DNA of 25,856 nt from a virus. Both the position numbers and the translations under genes were made by a program. The stretch spans positions 1 to 25,856 of IMG/VR virus record IMGVR_UViG_3300047276_000327. One strand, 5' to 3'. Under the pieces are notes generated by a model. The model had not been told where the DNA came from. It made no database searches and saw only the letters and a program-made list of their open reading frames with translations. Positions 8,247 to 21,705 of this stretch are shown here, piece after piece. Every line of letters starts with the position of its first letter. Positions within the stretch are counted from its first letter, which is position 1.

Positions 8247-8888
8247 TTAAGCAGCTAGACGCTGCAATAGGTTGGATACCTGCGATGGTGACCAGGTGGT
8301 ACCGCCGCGAGGGGTCTGCACGCTCTCGGCCTGGAGCTGCTTGGCGATTGCGCGTAGGGATGCCGCACCCATCTTGGCCACGATTGAGCGAACAATCGGT
8401 GCCACGGTGGCTGCGTAATCATCAGCTGCCTGGGCGGTGACTGCACCACCAGCTGATGGGTTGGGTGAGCCCAGGCGCACGCCACGGGCTTTAGCTGCGG
8501 CCAGGGCCGCTTTGGTGCGGCGAGCTATTTCCTCGCGCTCATGCTGTGCGACCACAGCTCGGATACCGAATTCCAGCGTGCCTGCGTGCGGCATATCAGC
8601 TGCCACTATATCGACACCGGCTTTACGCAACGCAAGCAAGAAAGCTGCATCACGCGATAAGCGGTCAATTTTGGCAATCAGAATGGCTGCGTTGTGCTTG
8701 CGGCATTGCTCAAGCGCAAGCGCCAACTGTGGGCGCTGATCGACCTTGCCAGATTCAATCTCGGTGAACTCAGCGATGATGCTGTCGCGGTAGCTTGCAA
8801 CAGCTGCCTGCTGGGCCTCAAGGCCGAGGCCAGATTGGCCCTGCTTGTCGGTTGATACGCGGTAGTAAGCGATGTATTTGGTAGTCAT
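8247..8888 (-). CDS. Small serine recombinase (resolvase/invertase family)
   Basis: The start was placed at the ATG ending at 8888 (MTTKYIAYYRVSTDKQ), behind AGGAGGGAGATTGAAA; the longer open frame has no domain upstream. The 213-aa protein has the catalytic Ser12 in Y-R-V-S-T-D, the paired arginines of KIDRLSRD (R76, R79) and the long helix EREEIARRTKAALAAAKARG. A C-terminal HTH follows (SLRAIAKQLQAESVQTPRGG then WSPSQVSNLLQRL). That is a complete short serine recombinase, not the >450-aa large serine integrase. Possible jobs are resolving genome multimers, inverting a segment or integration; no inverted crossover sites were seen. It shares a 14-bp leader with the gene upstream. Confidence 0.85.
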   Translation of the reverse strand: MTTKYIAYYRVSTDKQGQSGLGLEAQQAAVASYRDSIIAEFTEIESGKVDQRPQLALALEQCRKHNAAILIAKIDRLSRDAAFLLALRKAGVDIVAADMPHAGTLEFGIRAVVAQHEREEIARRTKAALAAAKARGVRLGSPNPSAGGAVTAQAADDYAATVAPIVRSIVAKMGAASLRAIAKQLQAESVQTPRGGTTWSPSQVSNLLQRLAA

Positions 8889-8915
8889 TTTCAATCTCCC
8901 TCCTGGGTAGTTGAT

Positions 8916-8931
8916 GGGGGCCGAAGCCCCC
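8916..8931 (-). promoter_or_regulatory. UUCG-tetraloop hairpin between two early genes
   Basis: On the minus strand six base pairs (GGGGGC with GCCCCC) close a TTCG loop, one of the most stable RNA hairpins possible. It lies in the 49-nt gap between the YodL-like stop and the serine recombinase start and is flanked on both sides by ATCAAC. There is no T tract, so it is not a standard terminator. It may stabilise the upstream message or lower expression of the recombinase. Confidence 0.55.
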
Positions 8932-8937
8932 GGTTGA

Positions 8938-9246
8938 TTAGATATTGCAGTCAAGAAAACCGTAGTTGTTAACGACAACGCACTTACCCGTTGCCAGGTC
9001 TTTGATGACATCACCAACGGAAATCGAATGCATTGGTGCTTTACGGTCAATCAGATCCTCATGTTCTCCAGAATTAGAAATCAAGAAAACATTATCGTGA
9101 GTGCCGTTCCATGAATCGATATGCGCGACCAGCTTGTAATCGCTAGCGTGGGCAGCGACAAGTTCTGCTGTGGGCTTGAATGTGACATCCGAATTGCGGC
9201 GAATGTCGTGGTTGTGAATTTGATAAATTGCGAAGGTTTTAGCCAT
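8938..9246 (-). CDS. YodL-like protein, first gene of the leftward operon
   Basis: The ATG ending at 9246 follows AGGAGATTGAAA and gives 102 aa beginning MAKTFAIYQIHNH; an in-frame TTG two codons earlier is unlikely. The C-terminal part MHSISVGDVI, then GKCVVVNNYGFLDC, resembles the YodL domain (S-x-S-V-x-D-[IV]...VxxxGF) found in mobile elements and phages beside antirestriction-type genes. As the first gene after the leftward promoter it would be made very early, which suits a host-takeover or defence-blocking role. That role is inference; the domain match is moderate. Confidence 0.6.
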   Translation of the reverse strand: MAKTFAIYQIHNHDIRRNSDVTFKPTAELVAAHASDYKLVAHIDSWNGTHDNVFLISNSGEHEDLIDRKAPMHSISVGDVIKDLATGKCVVVNNYGFLDCNI

Positions 9247-10158: not shown

Positions 10159-10247
10159 GCTTTCGTGGATGGTTTTTATGGTGTCGATTCTTTGATAAGC
10201 CAACGACCGGGAGGGTCAACGGATGTTCCGCATACCAGCCAGAGTGA
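10062..10247 (+). CDS. Small cysteine-rich protein, probable zinc binder
   Basis: The start was placed at ATG 10062 behind GGGGGGATT; an in-frame start at 10017 has no such site. The 61-aa product has C-x2-C (SCADCKN), then C (WCRFF) and C (NGCSAYQP), the pattern of small phage proteins that use four spaced cysteines for zinc and end in 'GCSxY'. It overlaps both neighbours in different frames. No function is known for this type of protein. Confidence 0.55.
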   Translation: MEDIEPGQEQKVAMRDLRGEPEGSSCADCKNVSFRGWFLWCRFFDKPTTGRVNGCSAYQPE

Positions 10248-10509
10248 CGAGCTACGCTGCCGGTCTTGCGGCTGTGTGCACCTTGATAGTCGGATGGTCA
10301 ATCTGTCTTACGGTGGCGCTGTTGGGAATTATTCTGAAAAGTTTTACCTGCACGGCGAGGCTGCGTGGGTACTCAAGAGATATCGCACCAAAAAGACTCG
10401 CCTGGCTTACCTCGATGCTGTGGAAGAGAAAAGAGGGCGAGCCGCCCGAGTGGCGTTACGGGAAGAGATGATGAGGATATGGGAACACAAACAAACACAG
10501 CGCAAGTGA
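10165..10509 (+). CDS. Zinc-ribbon protein with basic helical C-terminus; start uncertain
   Basis: The frame holds C-x2-C (LRCRSCGC) and a strongly helical, charged C-terminal part (AYLDAVEEKRGRAARVALREEMMRIWEHK). That part matches a widespread short phage module ('YL..VE..RG..AR..L...I...W'). The start could be GTG 10165 or TTG 10192; neither has a good ribosome site. The better site nearby (GGGAGGGTCAACGG) serves ATG 10222-10224 in another frame, whose product is an unlikely apolar sequence. The 3' end overlaps the replication initiator gene by 31 nt. The C-terminal part is convincing and the N-terminus is not. Confidence 0.55.
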   Translation: MDGFYGVDSLISQRPGGSTDVPHTSQSDELRCRSCGCVHLDSRMVNLSYGGAVGNYSEKFYLHGEAAWVLKRYRTKKTRLAYLDAVEEKRGRAARVALREEMMRIWEHKQTQRK

Positions 10510-11459
10510 TCGAGTTCAAGCTGCCAAAGCGGCCCAAGATAATTGAGAAGCAGGCACCGCCAGATCAGAGAAAATTCGCCGTGGTTCCGATGCGAGCTGC
10601 GCTGGACACCGAGCTGCATGGATTCTCGGTCAAGGTCTTAGTGCTGCTGTGCTCATACGCCAACAGGGCTGGGATTACATGGGTCGGTCAGCAGAGGATC
10701 GCCGAGCACCTGGGCGTGGCCAAGCAGCAGGTAGCGAGAGCTATGAAGCAGCTGCGAGACCGTGGCCACATCGAGGTGATGAGCAAGGGATTCAGAGGCG
10801 AGCGAGCCAACACCACCAGGGTGATCTATGACCCAGAGATCAAGGCCGATGATGCGATAGCTATCACCAGCGGCCAGGAAGACACCAGGCCACCGGAGAC
10901 AAGGCGCAGGGAGACCAAAGAGATGACCCGGTCGGGAAATAACCAGCCATTACAGGCCAACAAGGCACCAGACTTACCCGATCAGGAACCCGAGTTCACA
11001 GAGGAACAGATGGCCGCCAACAGAAAGCGGCTGCGAGAGATGCTCGGAGGATTAGCAGGCAGGGATGGATTTCACTACAACAGACCAGAGAAACTAGGAG
11101 ACATTATGGCCAGAAAACCAAAGGCAAAACCAACACCAAAGACACCTCACATAGACAACACACAGGTTGTCAATGAAGAGGCTCTCATAGACAACATCAT
11201 AGACAACACAGGTGTTGTCCAAACAAAGAAAAACATAGGTTATGAAGAGGTATTAAGTATTTATGAAGATATAAGTAAACATAGGTTTTCTAATGTTAGG
11301 ACAACACGGATCGATGAGGTTGACCTGCGATGCGCTGCGATCATGTGCGAGGTCGGGGTCGGCCGCCAGAAGTTCATCGATGCCTGCCAAACCATGCCGG
11401 TCTGCCTACGTTTGTCTGAGGTCTGTGAGCAATTGGCAGGGGAGGCTACAGGATTCTGA
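10479..11459 (+). CDS. Replication initiator, lambda O-like (winged HTH)
   Basis: The start was placed at ATG 10479 (MGTQTNTAQVIEFKL); the frame extends upstream only through sequence coding for the previous gene. Residues ~33-105 form a winged helix (KFAVVPMRAALDTELHG, then WVGQQRIAEHLGVAKQQVARAM and LRDRGHIEV), as in phage replication proteins that bind the origin. A low-complexity polar middle (110-275) follows, then a helical C-terminal domain (YEEVLSIYEDISKHRF to the end) that could contact a host helicase or loader. No helicase or loader gene is visible. Codons ~224-275 contain GACAAC iterons and an AT-rich block, so the gene probably holds its own origin, as lambda O does. Length is 326 aa. 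Confidence 0.7.
   Translation: MGTQTNTAQVIEFKLPKRPKIIEKQAPPDQRKFAVVPMRAALDTELHGFSVKVLVLLCSYANRAGITWVGQQRIAEHLGVAKQQVARAMKQLRDRGHIEVMSKGFRGERANTTRVIYDPEIKADDAIAITSGQEDTRPPETRRRETKEMTRSGNNQPLQANKAPDLPDQEPEFTEEQMAANRKRLREMLGGLAGRDGFHYNRPEKLGDIMARKPKAKPTPKTPHIDNTQVVNEEALIDNIIDNTGVVQTKKNIGYEEVLSIYEDISKHRFSNVRTTRIDEVDLRCAAIMCEVGVGRQKFIDACQTMPVCLRLSEVCEQLAGEATGF
11151..11305. other. Putative replication origin inside the initiator gene
   Basis: ATAGACAACA occurs at 11151, 11187 and 11199. GACAAC or its complement GTTGTC occurs six times: 11154, 11166, 11190, 11202, 11214 and 11300. Two pairs form inverted repeats, GACAAC/GTTGTC with 6 nt between and a perfect GACAACAC-AG-GTGTTGTC at 11202-11219. 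Immediately downstream (11221-11298) is an AT-rich stretch with a repeated AAACATAGGTT (11231 and 11277). Iterons beside an unwinding-prone region within the O-like gene is the lambda plan. Confidence 0.55.
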
Positions 11460-11922: not shown

Positions 11923-12219
11923 ATGGCATATGAGATGAAACCTGGTCAGGGGTCTGCCTGGCCAAACGAGAAGAGAACTGAGGATTGGCATTCTGCTTTC
12001 CGGGGTAAGGTGATGCTGCCAGATGGCAAGACCCATTGGCTGGACATCAACCCCAAGAACTCGGATGGCAAGACCTGGTACCAGGTAAAGATTGGCAAAG
12101 AGGTGGCAGCCCAGGGTGAATCCTACTCAGCTGCTCACAAACCTTTCCCGGCCCAGGACAACCACAACAAGGCCAAGGCCAACGGGTTTGTGGATCTCGA
12201 TGAAGATATTCCGTTCTGA
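11923..12219 (+). CDS. Putative single-strand DNA-binding-like protein with SSB acidic tip
   Basis: The 98-aa protein begins after GGAGATATATGC. The first ~65 residues look like a small beta-barrel (WHSAFRGKVML, THWLDINPKNS, KTWYQVKIGKEV), resembling DUF736-type and other OB-like small proteins. A polar linker (70-90) leads to a C-terminal D-L-D-E-D-I-P-F, which is the tip of bacterial SSB (D-D-D-I-P-F) that recruits replication and repair enzymes. It overlaps terS by 1 nt (TGATG). I infer a phage SSB that docks host or phage repair proteins. The tip is seen directly; ssDNA binding is inference. Confidence 0.6.
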   Translation: MAYEMKPGQGSAWPNEKRTEDWHSAFRGKVMLPDGKTHWLDINPKNSDGKTWYQVKIGKEVAAQGESYSAAHKPFPAQDNHNKAKANGFVDLDEDIPF

Positions 12220-12677
12220 TGGCCAGACCTAAGTCGCGTATATCCGAGCAGGTACCCAGCCTCAAGAACTGGGGCGGGGTGCGCTCAATCCAGCGGCGCA
12301 TGGAACGCTCGGCCACCATCATAGAAAACCGAGAGGCCATTGCGTTTTCTCTGCTGTGCATGGCCAACACCAAGATCACAGACATCTTAACGTGGGACGA
12401 GGACGGAAATGTCAAGGTTAAAGCGGCAAGTCAAATTCCAGATCACGCCTTGCAGGCAATCAAAAATATCAGGGTCAAGCGTGAGAAGGATGGTTCGCAG
12501 ACGCTTGACGTTGAACTCTACGACAAGGTTGGCGTGCTCCGTCTACTTGCTAAAGCGTCTGGATTACTTGATAACCCGGACGATGGATCGGATAAACCAT
12601 CAGTCATAGGCATCAACGTCCAGGCTCCTGAACCCATCGATGTGGAGGTAAAAGATGAAACAAGATTGGATCAATAG
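12219..12677 (+). CDS. terS: Terminase small subunit
   Basis: The 152-aa protein has the features of small terminases from this phage group: a basic N-terminus (MARPKSRISEQVPSLKNWGG), a helical DNA-binding region (residues ~25-60, RMERSATIIENREAIAF...KITDIL), then TWDEDGNVKVKAASQIPDHA and LDVELYDKVGVLRLLAKASGLL. It binds the phage DNA packaging site and passes it to the large subunit. The large subunit gene follows, separated by a small membrane ORF. The start overlaps the previous stop. Confidence 0.8.
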   Translation: MARPKSRISEQVPSLKNWGGVRSIQRRMERSATIIENREAIAFSLLCMANTKITDILTWDEDGNVKVKAASQIPDHALQAIKNIRVKREKDGSQTLDVELYDKVGVLRLLAKASGLLDNPDDGSDKPSVIGINVQAPEPIDVEVKDETRLDQ

Positions 12678-20493: not shown

Positions 20494-20500
20494 GATTGTG

Positions 20501-21052
20501 ATGCCGCAGCCGTATGACGTACAACACAAGGGGTGTGCCATTATTTGTGGCGCAGCCCCTTGTGTCTTTGAAGACCTAGAAAACGCACGCAAGCTGCGAC
20601 CAGATGCCACCATTATTGGCGTTAATAATGCGGCCGCAATGATTCCAGAAATTGAGCATATCTGGACGCAGCACAATAATTACGCCCAAGAATACAAAAC
20701 TAAAGCTGGCAGGCCAATAAAGGTTCACGCTAGGGCTGGCATCATGGGAAATGATGTGGACTACTGGTGGAACAATATGGTTGGTATAAAAGGATCAAGT
20801 GGGATTGTGGCCGCAATTTGGGCCAAGGCTATGGGTTTCGATGAGGTAATTATGGCTGGTATCCCTTTGAGCGTTAGCAGCACCAACTACCACGACCAAT
20901 ACCCAGACAGCAAGCCAGACAGGATATTTGCGCTTACCAATAACATTGAGCATTGGCAAAGGTTTCTGTATATACACAAAGAACATGGGCGCATGGATGG
21001 TGTAACCTCTCTTAGCGGATATACCCGCCAAGTTCTAGGAGCCCCATGTTAA
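20501..21052 (+). CDS. DUF115 / MptE-like Rossmann protein (glycan-related, putative)
   Basis: ATG 20501 is taken as the start; an in-frame GTG lies one codon earlier. The product of 183 aa has a Rossmann-like opening (CAIICGAAPCVFEDLENARK), ATIIGVNNAAAMIPEIEHIWT and then SSGIVAAIWAKAMGFDEVIMAGIPLS. This resembles the DUF115 / motility-accessory and sialyltransferase-like group, which act on sugars or sugar donors. The next gene is a glycosyltransferase and overlaps it by 7 nt, supporting a glycan role. Between capsid and tail genes, the pair may decorate a virion protein. A strong RNA hairpin covers codons ~9-22. The function is inferred. Confidence 0.55.
   Translation: MPQPYDVQHKGCAIICGAAPCVFEDLENARKLRPDATIIGVNNAAAMIPEIEHIWTQHNNYAQEYKTKAGRPIKVHARAGIMGNDVDYWWNNMVGIKGSSGIVAAIWAKAMGFDEVIMAGIPLSVSSTNYHDQYPDSKPDRIFALTNNIEHWQRFLYIHKEHGRMDGVTSLSGYTRQVLGAPC
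20524..20565 (+). promoter_or_regulatory. 16-bp RNA hairpin at the start of the glycan gene
   Basis: ACACAAGGGG (20524-20533) is the exact reverse complement of CCCCTTGTGT (20556-20565). The stem continues inward with T534-A554 (G555 bulged) and GTGCC (20535-20539) / GGCGC (20549-20553), one pair being G-U, leaving a 9-nt loop. Sixteen pairs with one bulge make it far more stable than expected inside a coding region. No T run follows. Confidence 0.6.
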
Positions 21053-21705
21053 CTGTTGCCTGTGTTCTCAAGTCTGGCCGTTTTAGCCAATCAGCTAGCA
21101 AAGAGCCCTACACCACAGCCGATGTGGAAAGATTGATGAATATGGTTGCCAAGAATCTTGGAGATCATAGGTTTGTTTGTTTTTCGGATGTAGATGTACC
21201 GTGTGAGCGCATACCGCTCAAACACGGGTGGCCAGGTTGGTGGTCTAAGATCGAGCTCTTTTCTTGGGTATTTGATGGCCCGGTGCTTTACTTTGACCTA
21301 GATACAGTTATCTGTGGTGACCTGACCGAGCTGGCCGAGTACCCACATAAATTCACGATGCTCAAAGACCTTGGCAAGCGCGATACCCCAGCAAGTGGGA
21401 TGATGGCCTGGAACGGTGACTATTCGCACATTTACCTGACATTTAGGTCAGACCCATCGTTTTACATGACTATGTACTCTGGCAGCCTGAACCTTGGTGA
21501 CCAGGCGTTTATTGCAAAGAATCAAAAGCCAGACTGCTTGTGGCAACAGATATTCCCCAATAGAATCTTCTCATACAAATTTCATCTTCTTGGCAAGCAA
21601 AAACCAGATGAGGCAAAAGTAGTTTGTTTTCATGGCGAGCCAAAAGGCTCTGGTTCAAGTGGCTGGGTAAGAGATATATGGAGTAATGCAAATGGCAGCA
21701 GGTGA
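21046..21705 (+). CDS. Glycosyltransferase, GT-A fold (GT8-like)
   Basis: The 219-aa protein has an N-terminal strand and helix (MLTVACVLKSGRF), HRFVCFSDVDVPCERIPL, then GWWSKIELFSWVFDGPVLYF followed by D-L-D at residues 84-86 (metal-binding DxD) and TVICGDL. Later come SGMMAWNGDYS, LGDQAFI and FHGEPKG, the usual order for a metal-dependent nucleotide-sugar transferase of the GT8 type. It overlaps the DUF115-like gene by 7 nt and the tail tubular A gene by 14 nt. Virion or host-surface sugar modification is likely; the acceptor is unknown. Confidence 0.75.
   Translation: MLTVACVLKSGRFSQSASKEPYTTADVERLMNMVAKNLGDHRFVCFSDVDVPCERIPLKHGWPGWWSKIELFSWVFDGPVLYFDLDTVICGDLTELAEYPHKFTMLKDLGKRDTPASGMMAWNGDYSHIYLTFRSDPSFYMTMYSGSLNLGDQAFIAKNQKPDCLWQQIFPNRIFSYKFHLLGKQKPDEAKVVCFHGEPKGSGSSGWVRDIWSNANGSR

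Follow-up and report, generated by a model that had tools for sequence, protein, structure and literature searches.

A probable replication origin inside the gene of a winged-helix initiator, and its covariation with the recognition helix in a family of uncultured phages with T7-like virion genes

A cluster of short repeats lies beside an AT-rich stretch within the gene of a putative replication initiator in IMG/VR record IMGVR_UViG_3300047276_000327, the 25,856 bases of which are referred to here as the window. The locus raises the question of whether the repeats act as DNA and, if so, whether the protein made from the same gene recognizes them and starts replication there.

The initiator gene and its repeat module

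The open reading frame extends from a GTG at 10365, and its first 38 residues overlap the upstream gene in another frame; the ATG at 10479 is the likely start, judging from the N-terminus that is conserved in relatives. Counted from this ATG, the overlap with the DUF7696 gene (10165-10509), which is read in a different frame, is ~30 bases. The product matches PHROG 270 “replication initiation protein” (E 7.6e-11), PHROG 391 “replication initiation O-like” (E 8.4e-9) and PHROG 345 (E 1.4e-7). The features of the locus are as follows.

10479-11459, + strand: initiator gene, 326 aa, winged-helix O-like replication initiator (PHROG 270, PHROG 391, HTH_36)
10590-10823, + strand: winged-helix DNA-binding domain, residues 38-115 (AlphaFold2 pLDDT about 79-93)
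10722-10760, + strand: predicted recognition helix, residues 82-94, with K82, Q84, A86 and R87 in the window (AlphaFold2 model; covariation ranks)
11150-11159, + strand: iteron half-site 1, CATAGACAAC
11166-11175, - strand: iteron half-site 2, CATTGACAAC on the - strand, facing half-site 1 (dyad 11154-11171)
11186-11195, + strand: iteron half-site 3, CATAGACAAC, with no half-site opposite it
11198-11207, + strand: iteron half-site 4, CATAGACAAC
11214-11219, - strand: iteron half-site 5, core GTTGTC, which makes an 18-bp palindrome with half-site 4
11221-11300, no strand assigned: AT-rich tract that is probably an unwinding element and carries AAACATAGGTT at 11231-11241 and 11277-11287 (synonymous diversity, AT maximum, repeats)
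11923-12219, + strand: downstream SSB-like gene, likely replication partner (phrog_18154 single strand DNA binding protein, E 3.6e-4)

The original prediction of a winged-helix initiator is borne out by the Pfam HTH_36 model, which was matched by 41/41 aligned relatives, and by an AlphaFold2 model built from 41 sequences (mean pLDDT 68.6). In this model, the C-terminal part is helical with moderate confidence, and residues 220-251, including the peptide coded by the repeats, are of low confidence (pLDDT below 50 for the repeat peptide). The repeats are thus placed by the model in a part of the gene that codes for a predicted disordered linker. A sequence search of solved structures returned two regulators and one aminotransferase-family protein (E 0.003-0.004). 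When 84,980 cellular genomes were scanned for the initiator domain, seven stretches matched the pattern and none of them encoded a relative.

GACAAC or its complement GTTGTC starts at 11154(+), 11166(-), 11190(+), 11202(+), 11214(-) and 11300(+), where six such elements had been predicted. The first five (11154-11219) make up a single module, in which successive starts are 12, 24, 12 and 12 bp apart. The full repeat unit, CATAGACAAC, is complete at 11150, 11186 and 11198 and is present with one mismatch on the - strand at 11166. The sixth element probably lies outside the module and was rejected as a member because it varies independently of the other five: at this position, GACAAC is retained in L033 and L035, whose modules are of the GTCAAC type, and L040 has AACAAC. 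The predicted palindrome, GACAACACAGGTGTTGTC, is present at 11202-11219 with 8-bp arms around an AG centre and occurs once in the record; the repeated element predicted in the AT-rich stretch was also found, as AAACATAGGTT starting at 11231 and 11277. Throughout the window, GACAAC/GTTGTC was observed 21 times (~14 expected from base composition), and the GACAAC cluster at 11154 is the only case of a 6-mer with at least five copies in 110 bp.

Relatives of the gene were collected from IMG/VR, and 171 distinct genes were compared. A scan with the window protein yielded 41 loci, and four alignment scans supplied the best 80 of 305 to 427 each, with many contigs fetched repeatedly. The window and L002-L363 make up 363 entries, nine of which the motif filter failed to catch; the remaining 354 contain 207 distinct genes (compared over the helix and 300 nt), 36 of which were dropped because less than 330 nt followed the domain (22 of these have helices like that of phage MEP301, described below). 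Each gene was labelled by its top 6-mer, and ties were resolved toward forms with CAAC. An earlier scan that demanded a facing pair of repeats gave the same classes wherever a pair was found, with the same tie preference, and returned no 6-mer or another one in, e.g., 9/16 VSRQAITRQ genes and 6/7 long TSRQNITNQ genes. Five of the 171 genes (L073, L077, L148, L182 and L349) have another top 6-mer; they are counted as misses in the helix-code count and left out of the counts of AT position, tree, frame and concerted change, and column scan. The remaining 166 genes are not independent and fall into about 50 clusters at 85% identity.

Some 6-mer reaches at least four copies in 156/171 real genes of relatives; after codon shuffling, four copies were reached in 7/855 shuffles and five never. 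Modules of relatives occupy the same place in the gene and have other sequences (CATAGACAAC, CATACACAAC and CATAGTCAAC in the first set). The peptides over the repeats vary by type (HIDNT versus HTQPN and HSQPN), as the frame in which the shared DNA motif is translated differs; L019 uses both frames in one gene, and plus-strand copies of the motif lie in more than one frame in 99/166 genes. Copies within a gene agree with each other, since full CAT[AT]XYCAAC sites match the gene's own base Y in 336/336 cases, with 0 discordant. One or more facing pairs with a spacing of 9-14 bp occur in 145/166 genes, and facing neighbours are spaced 10-14 bp apart in 273/291 cases.

Synonymous codon diversity, computed on 25 distinct genes of the window's type, is 0.048 over 11150-11220 and 0.069 over 11221-11300; elsewhere it is 0.34 just upstream, 0.29 downstream and 0.31 over all upstream codons scanned. 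AT content in relatives reaches its maximum, 0.74-0.76, at a distance of 20-60 bp on the 3′ side of the last repeat, and the AT-richest 50 bp (mean AT 0.78) begins at most 40 bp 3′ of the last iteron in 146/159 genes. Conservation of the iterons despite amino-acid change had been proposed as a check on the origin, and the outcome is strongly positive: the motif is read in other frames, its copies change in concert and synonymous diversity is low. By these sequence comparisons, the repeats and the AT tract are under selection as DNA. GC skew, also proposed as a check, shows no turn at 11.2 kb; it tracks gene strand and is uninformative on the origin.

Recognition helix and iteron type

As can be seen from the 171-gene set, the residue at position 82 accompanies the core of the repeat. 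Genes with Q82 have ACAAC in 75/76 cases, those with R82 and a residue other than N at position 87 have GCAAC in 39/41, and those with both R82 and N87 have GGACAC in 17/17. Among the 37 K82 genes, 24 have ACAAC and 11 have TCAAC, and base X of the XY-CAAC core is G in 35/35 K82 genes. The base that follows the core is A in 23/23 K82-Q84 genes, C in 75/75 Q82 genes and T in 17/17 R82-N87 genes. Arginine with G and glutamine with A are the usual contacts. One and the same K82 helix is found with GTCAAC in most genes and with GACAAC in L191 and L420, which indicates that other residues matter.

The helix and the repeats belong to the same gene and might therefore be linked simply by common descent, for which reason a tree and a column scan were made. 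The tree, for which the helix and the peptide of the repeats were masked, shows 15 changes of helix class and 16 of iteron label. Independent pairs that differ in having R or not agree in 7/7 cases (sign test p 0.016); Q versus R pairs agree in 4/4 and R versus R-N pairs in 2/2, numbers too few for significance. In an unbiased scan, residues 82, 86, 90 and 87 were the top four of 118 domain columns, every one of them within the recognition helix (scores 0.731 to 0.444, with 0.731 for residue 82), and residues 82, 86 and 90 are each one helix turn apart. The best column elsewhere scored 0.354 in the C-terminal domain of the initiator and 0.446 in the adjacent SSB-like protein (71 genes where it was found).

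The helix-iteron rule was fixed before two further scans and was then applied to 29 distinct, sufficiently long genes on which it had not been built. Three of these (L242, L244 and L246) had been fetched earlier and missed by the motif filter; as for the rest of the missed set, five loci are duplicates and L042 is without the domain. Definite predictions were correct in 16/20 cases (10/12 in one set and 6/8 in the other). In two of the failures, L448 and L451, another 6-mer is commoner, and each has three GGACAC-type module sites, including a facing pair. The other two, L404 and L405, combine R82 with GTCAAC and are true exceptions to the simple code. For nine K82 genes that have neither Q84 nor N86, the prediction was no more precise than “A or T”; all fit, which is little informative. 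Residue 71 is T instead of the usual Gln in L404, L405 and, within the L110 group, the genes with GTCAAC. An additional residue is therefore probably involved, and residue 71 may, from this pattern, be a second specificity switch. T71 accompanies GTCAAC whether residue 82 is R or K (L404, L405, L110 and L315).

DNA-level conservation, concerted change and covariation with the helix argue that the initiator very probably binds the repeats of its own gene, and that the module together with the AT-rich tract on its 3′ side is very probably a replication origin.

Origin function and its alternatives

The explanation that we consider highly likely as a whole is that the region from 11150 to about 11300 is an origin inside the initiator gene, at which the winged helix would bind half-sites, the AT tract would melt and the C-terminal part would bring host proteins. 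The N-terminal winged helix would bind CATA-XY-CAAC half-sites in both facing and tandem arrangement, two half-site pairs facing each other about one helical turn apart. A nucleoprotein complex would form and melt the AT-rich tract on its 3′ side, and the C-terminal part of the initiator would then recruit host replication proteins. Initiator binding, melting, helicase loading and replication start at this site are what we infer from the sequence.

The same repeats could be an operator at which the initiator represses or roadblocks its own gene, replication starting elsewhere. Initiators often autoregulate, and covariation of helix and repeats would equally be expected from a winged-helix protein that binds the gene encoding it. 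The site, however, lies ~670 bp inside the gene, and an operator needs no AT tract, yet the tract is constrained and kept 3′ of the repeats in 146/159 genes. We regard an operator in place of an origin as improbable; the two roles could coexist.

It is much less probable still that the facing repeats are mRNA hairpins that control the gene and not DNA sites. The + strand folds better than shuffled sequences (z -3.5), as any facing repeats would, but the number of half-sites is odd (three + and two -), which leaves one copy partnerless, and the copies change in concert, the changing base following a DNA-recognition helix; no Rfam match was found in the window. Equally small is the chance that the module is a pac site for the small terminase encoded about 1 kb downstream. 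Pac sites are often near the small terminase gene, and a small-subunit candidate is present at 12219-12677 (PF03592, just under its cut-off); in the column scan, which covered the initiator and the SSB-like protein, the repeat type, however, follows the initiator helix far better than any column of the initiator C-terminus or the SSB-like protein. That the repeats merely reflect a repetitive peptide (IDNT...VV) conserved for the sake of the protein is hardly credible, although they translate as HIDNTQVV, IDN and IDNTGVV, since synonymous sites hardly vary, the DNA motif is translated in other frames in relatives, pLDDT in the stretch is below 50 and two of the five copies are inverted.

Profile searches for replication partners were made in 20 records of 25.9-35.6 kb, some of which are perhaps incomplete. 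There were matches in 0/20 records to a phage DnaB-type helicase (PF03796), in 0/20 to a DnaC/IstB-like loader (PF01695), in 0/20 to lambda P (PF06992) and in 0/20 to a family A DNA polymerase; T7-type RNA polymerase (PF00940) also had matches in 0/20 records, in a search whose control was equally silent. With a phage helicase, loader, P protein and polymerase unmatched, host proteins or an unrecognised protein must do these jobs. The phage carries recombination genes of the RecT, YqaJ and RusA types, with a possible role in late replication. A serine resolvase/invertase gene (8247-9050, - strand; PF00239, E 1.3e-24) lies beside the RecT- and YqaJ-type genes and is found in MEP301 too.

The claim of a T7-like virion is upheld by matches of the virion genes to T7-type head-tail adaptor, tail tubular A and B and internal virion protein, that is, to a short-tailed T7-like set (phrog_332, E 2.7e-82; phrog_394, E 4.7e-29; phrog_9239 “tail tubular protein”, E 4.1e-6; phrog_376, E 8.2e-121; phrog_418, E 8.3e-5). 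Two ORFs (20498-21705) separate the capsid gene of the window from that of tail tubular A, where MEP301 has one small ORF; the second of the two looks, by eye, sugar-transfer-like, with a DLDT-like motif.

The arrangement had been called lambda-style, and this applies to its layout and probable way of working, with iterons, an AT tract and an O-like initiator. Passages in PMC7466680 place iterons and an AT-rich tract in the middle of O in lambdoid phages; the window likewise has iterons and an adjoining AT tract in mid-gene, as in ori-lambda, and its protein matches PHROG O-like families. Membership in the lambda O family is looser: the Pfam lambda-O model (Phage_rep_O) gave no match at E 0.01 among the 41 members. 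In contrast to lambda, no P-type loader was found (0/20 records, as were DnaB- and IstB/DnaC-like genes), the 10-bp half-sites of the window's family stand in facing and tandem pairs and belong to several sequence classes, and the phage combines them with T7-like virion genes and RecT/YqaJ/RusA recombination genes.

RepA_N plasmids are an equally close parallel, and the family resembles both systems and matches the Pfam models of neither (for the RepA_N domain, pfam06970, no match at E 0.01 among the 41 members). Foldseek hits 1 and 3 in PDB were 4pql (E 0.0066) and 4pt7 (E 0.015), mixed with MarR/ArsR/CodY regulators; they are described as the N-terminal domain of a DNA binding protein and the structure of an initiator, and we take both to be RepA_N plasmid proteins. 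According to passages in PMC5703833, the winged-helix N-terminal domain of such plasmids (pSK41) binds boxes central in rep, and the C-terminal domain is host-specific. Like these boxes, the repeats of the window lie inside the gene. The peptide that they code for is predicted to be disordered; unlike the plasmids, the window is a phage genome with virion genes. In Vibrio PLE satellites, as parts of PMC8263062 describe, the RepA_N domain varies together with the origin and is exchanged as a module; the origin there is noncoding.

Geminivirus Rep is an unrelated, HUH-type initiator. Its interaction with iterons is sequence-specific, and related viruses often differ in iterons, as stated in part of PMC12548392. 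The window's family would have a similar sequence-specific pairing of its initiator with iterons, which differ among relatives; geminivirus iterons, in contrast, are upstream of the gene, in a single-stranded DNA virus.

The closest named phage is Methylophilales phage MEP301, the sole match in searches of phage records with different initiator queries; its portal is 79.9% identical and its initiator domain 37.7%. It has the same set of recombinase, YqaJ, SSB and RusA genes. Unlike that of the window, its initiator gp55 (annotated as hypothetical; L043 34057-34662) has 201 aa and no long linker, and no iteron cluster was found in or near the gene. Short initiators of this kind were considered as carriers of the same iterons, and none were seen: around seventeen MEP301-like loci, from -200 to +900 bp where the sequence reached, there was no 6-mer with five copies in 110 bp. 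Members of the branch formed by L284-L310 and gp55 have initiators of ~200 aa that lack the linker, and neither the gene nor its surroundings contain iterons. Sections of PMC8024684 describe MEP301 as host-dependent and name five replication and metabolism genes, no polymerase being among those named there.

Specificity classes and their meaning

An origin within the initiator gene is not a new layout, because it is textbook for lambda and known for RepA_N plasmids. In the open-licence literature, we found no paper on the origin or the specificity switches of this family. What is new is an uncultured water-borne phage family in which the specificities of initiator and origin have changed in step on many occasions, inside a single reading frame.

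At least three iteron classes (ACAAC, GCAAC and GGACAC) were observed in one metagenome sample, 3300008266 (L037, L174, L249, L264 and L467), and different origin types thus coexist. A broader proposal, which we put forward tentatively and hold at somewhat less than an even chance, is that residue 82, together with residues 84, 86, 87 and probably 71, would set the bases of every iteron within the gene that encodes the initiator. There would be at least five classes (GACAACA, GTCAAC, nACAACC, nGCAAC and GGACAC), between which the phages would have switched repeatedly; replicons of different classes would share water samples without recognizing one another and in this would resemble plasmid incompatibility groups. 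The switching would perhaps be driven by competitors, satellites or nucleases directed at origins, and the initiator would load the host helicase without a phage loader.

The analysis assigns a probable initiator and replication start to a group for whose cultured relative MEP301 neither is named in passages of PMC8024684, words starting with “origin” being absent from its main text. Since the joint changes fall within one reading frame, partner residues and bases can be read from natural variants.
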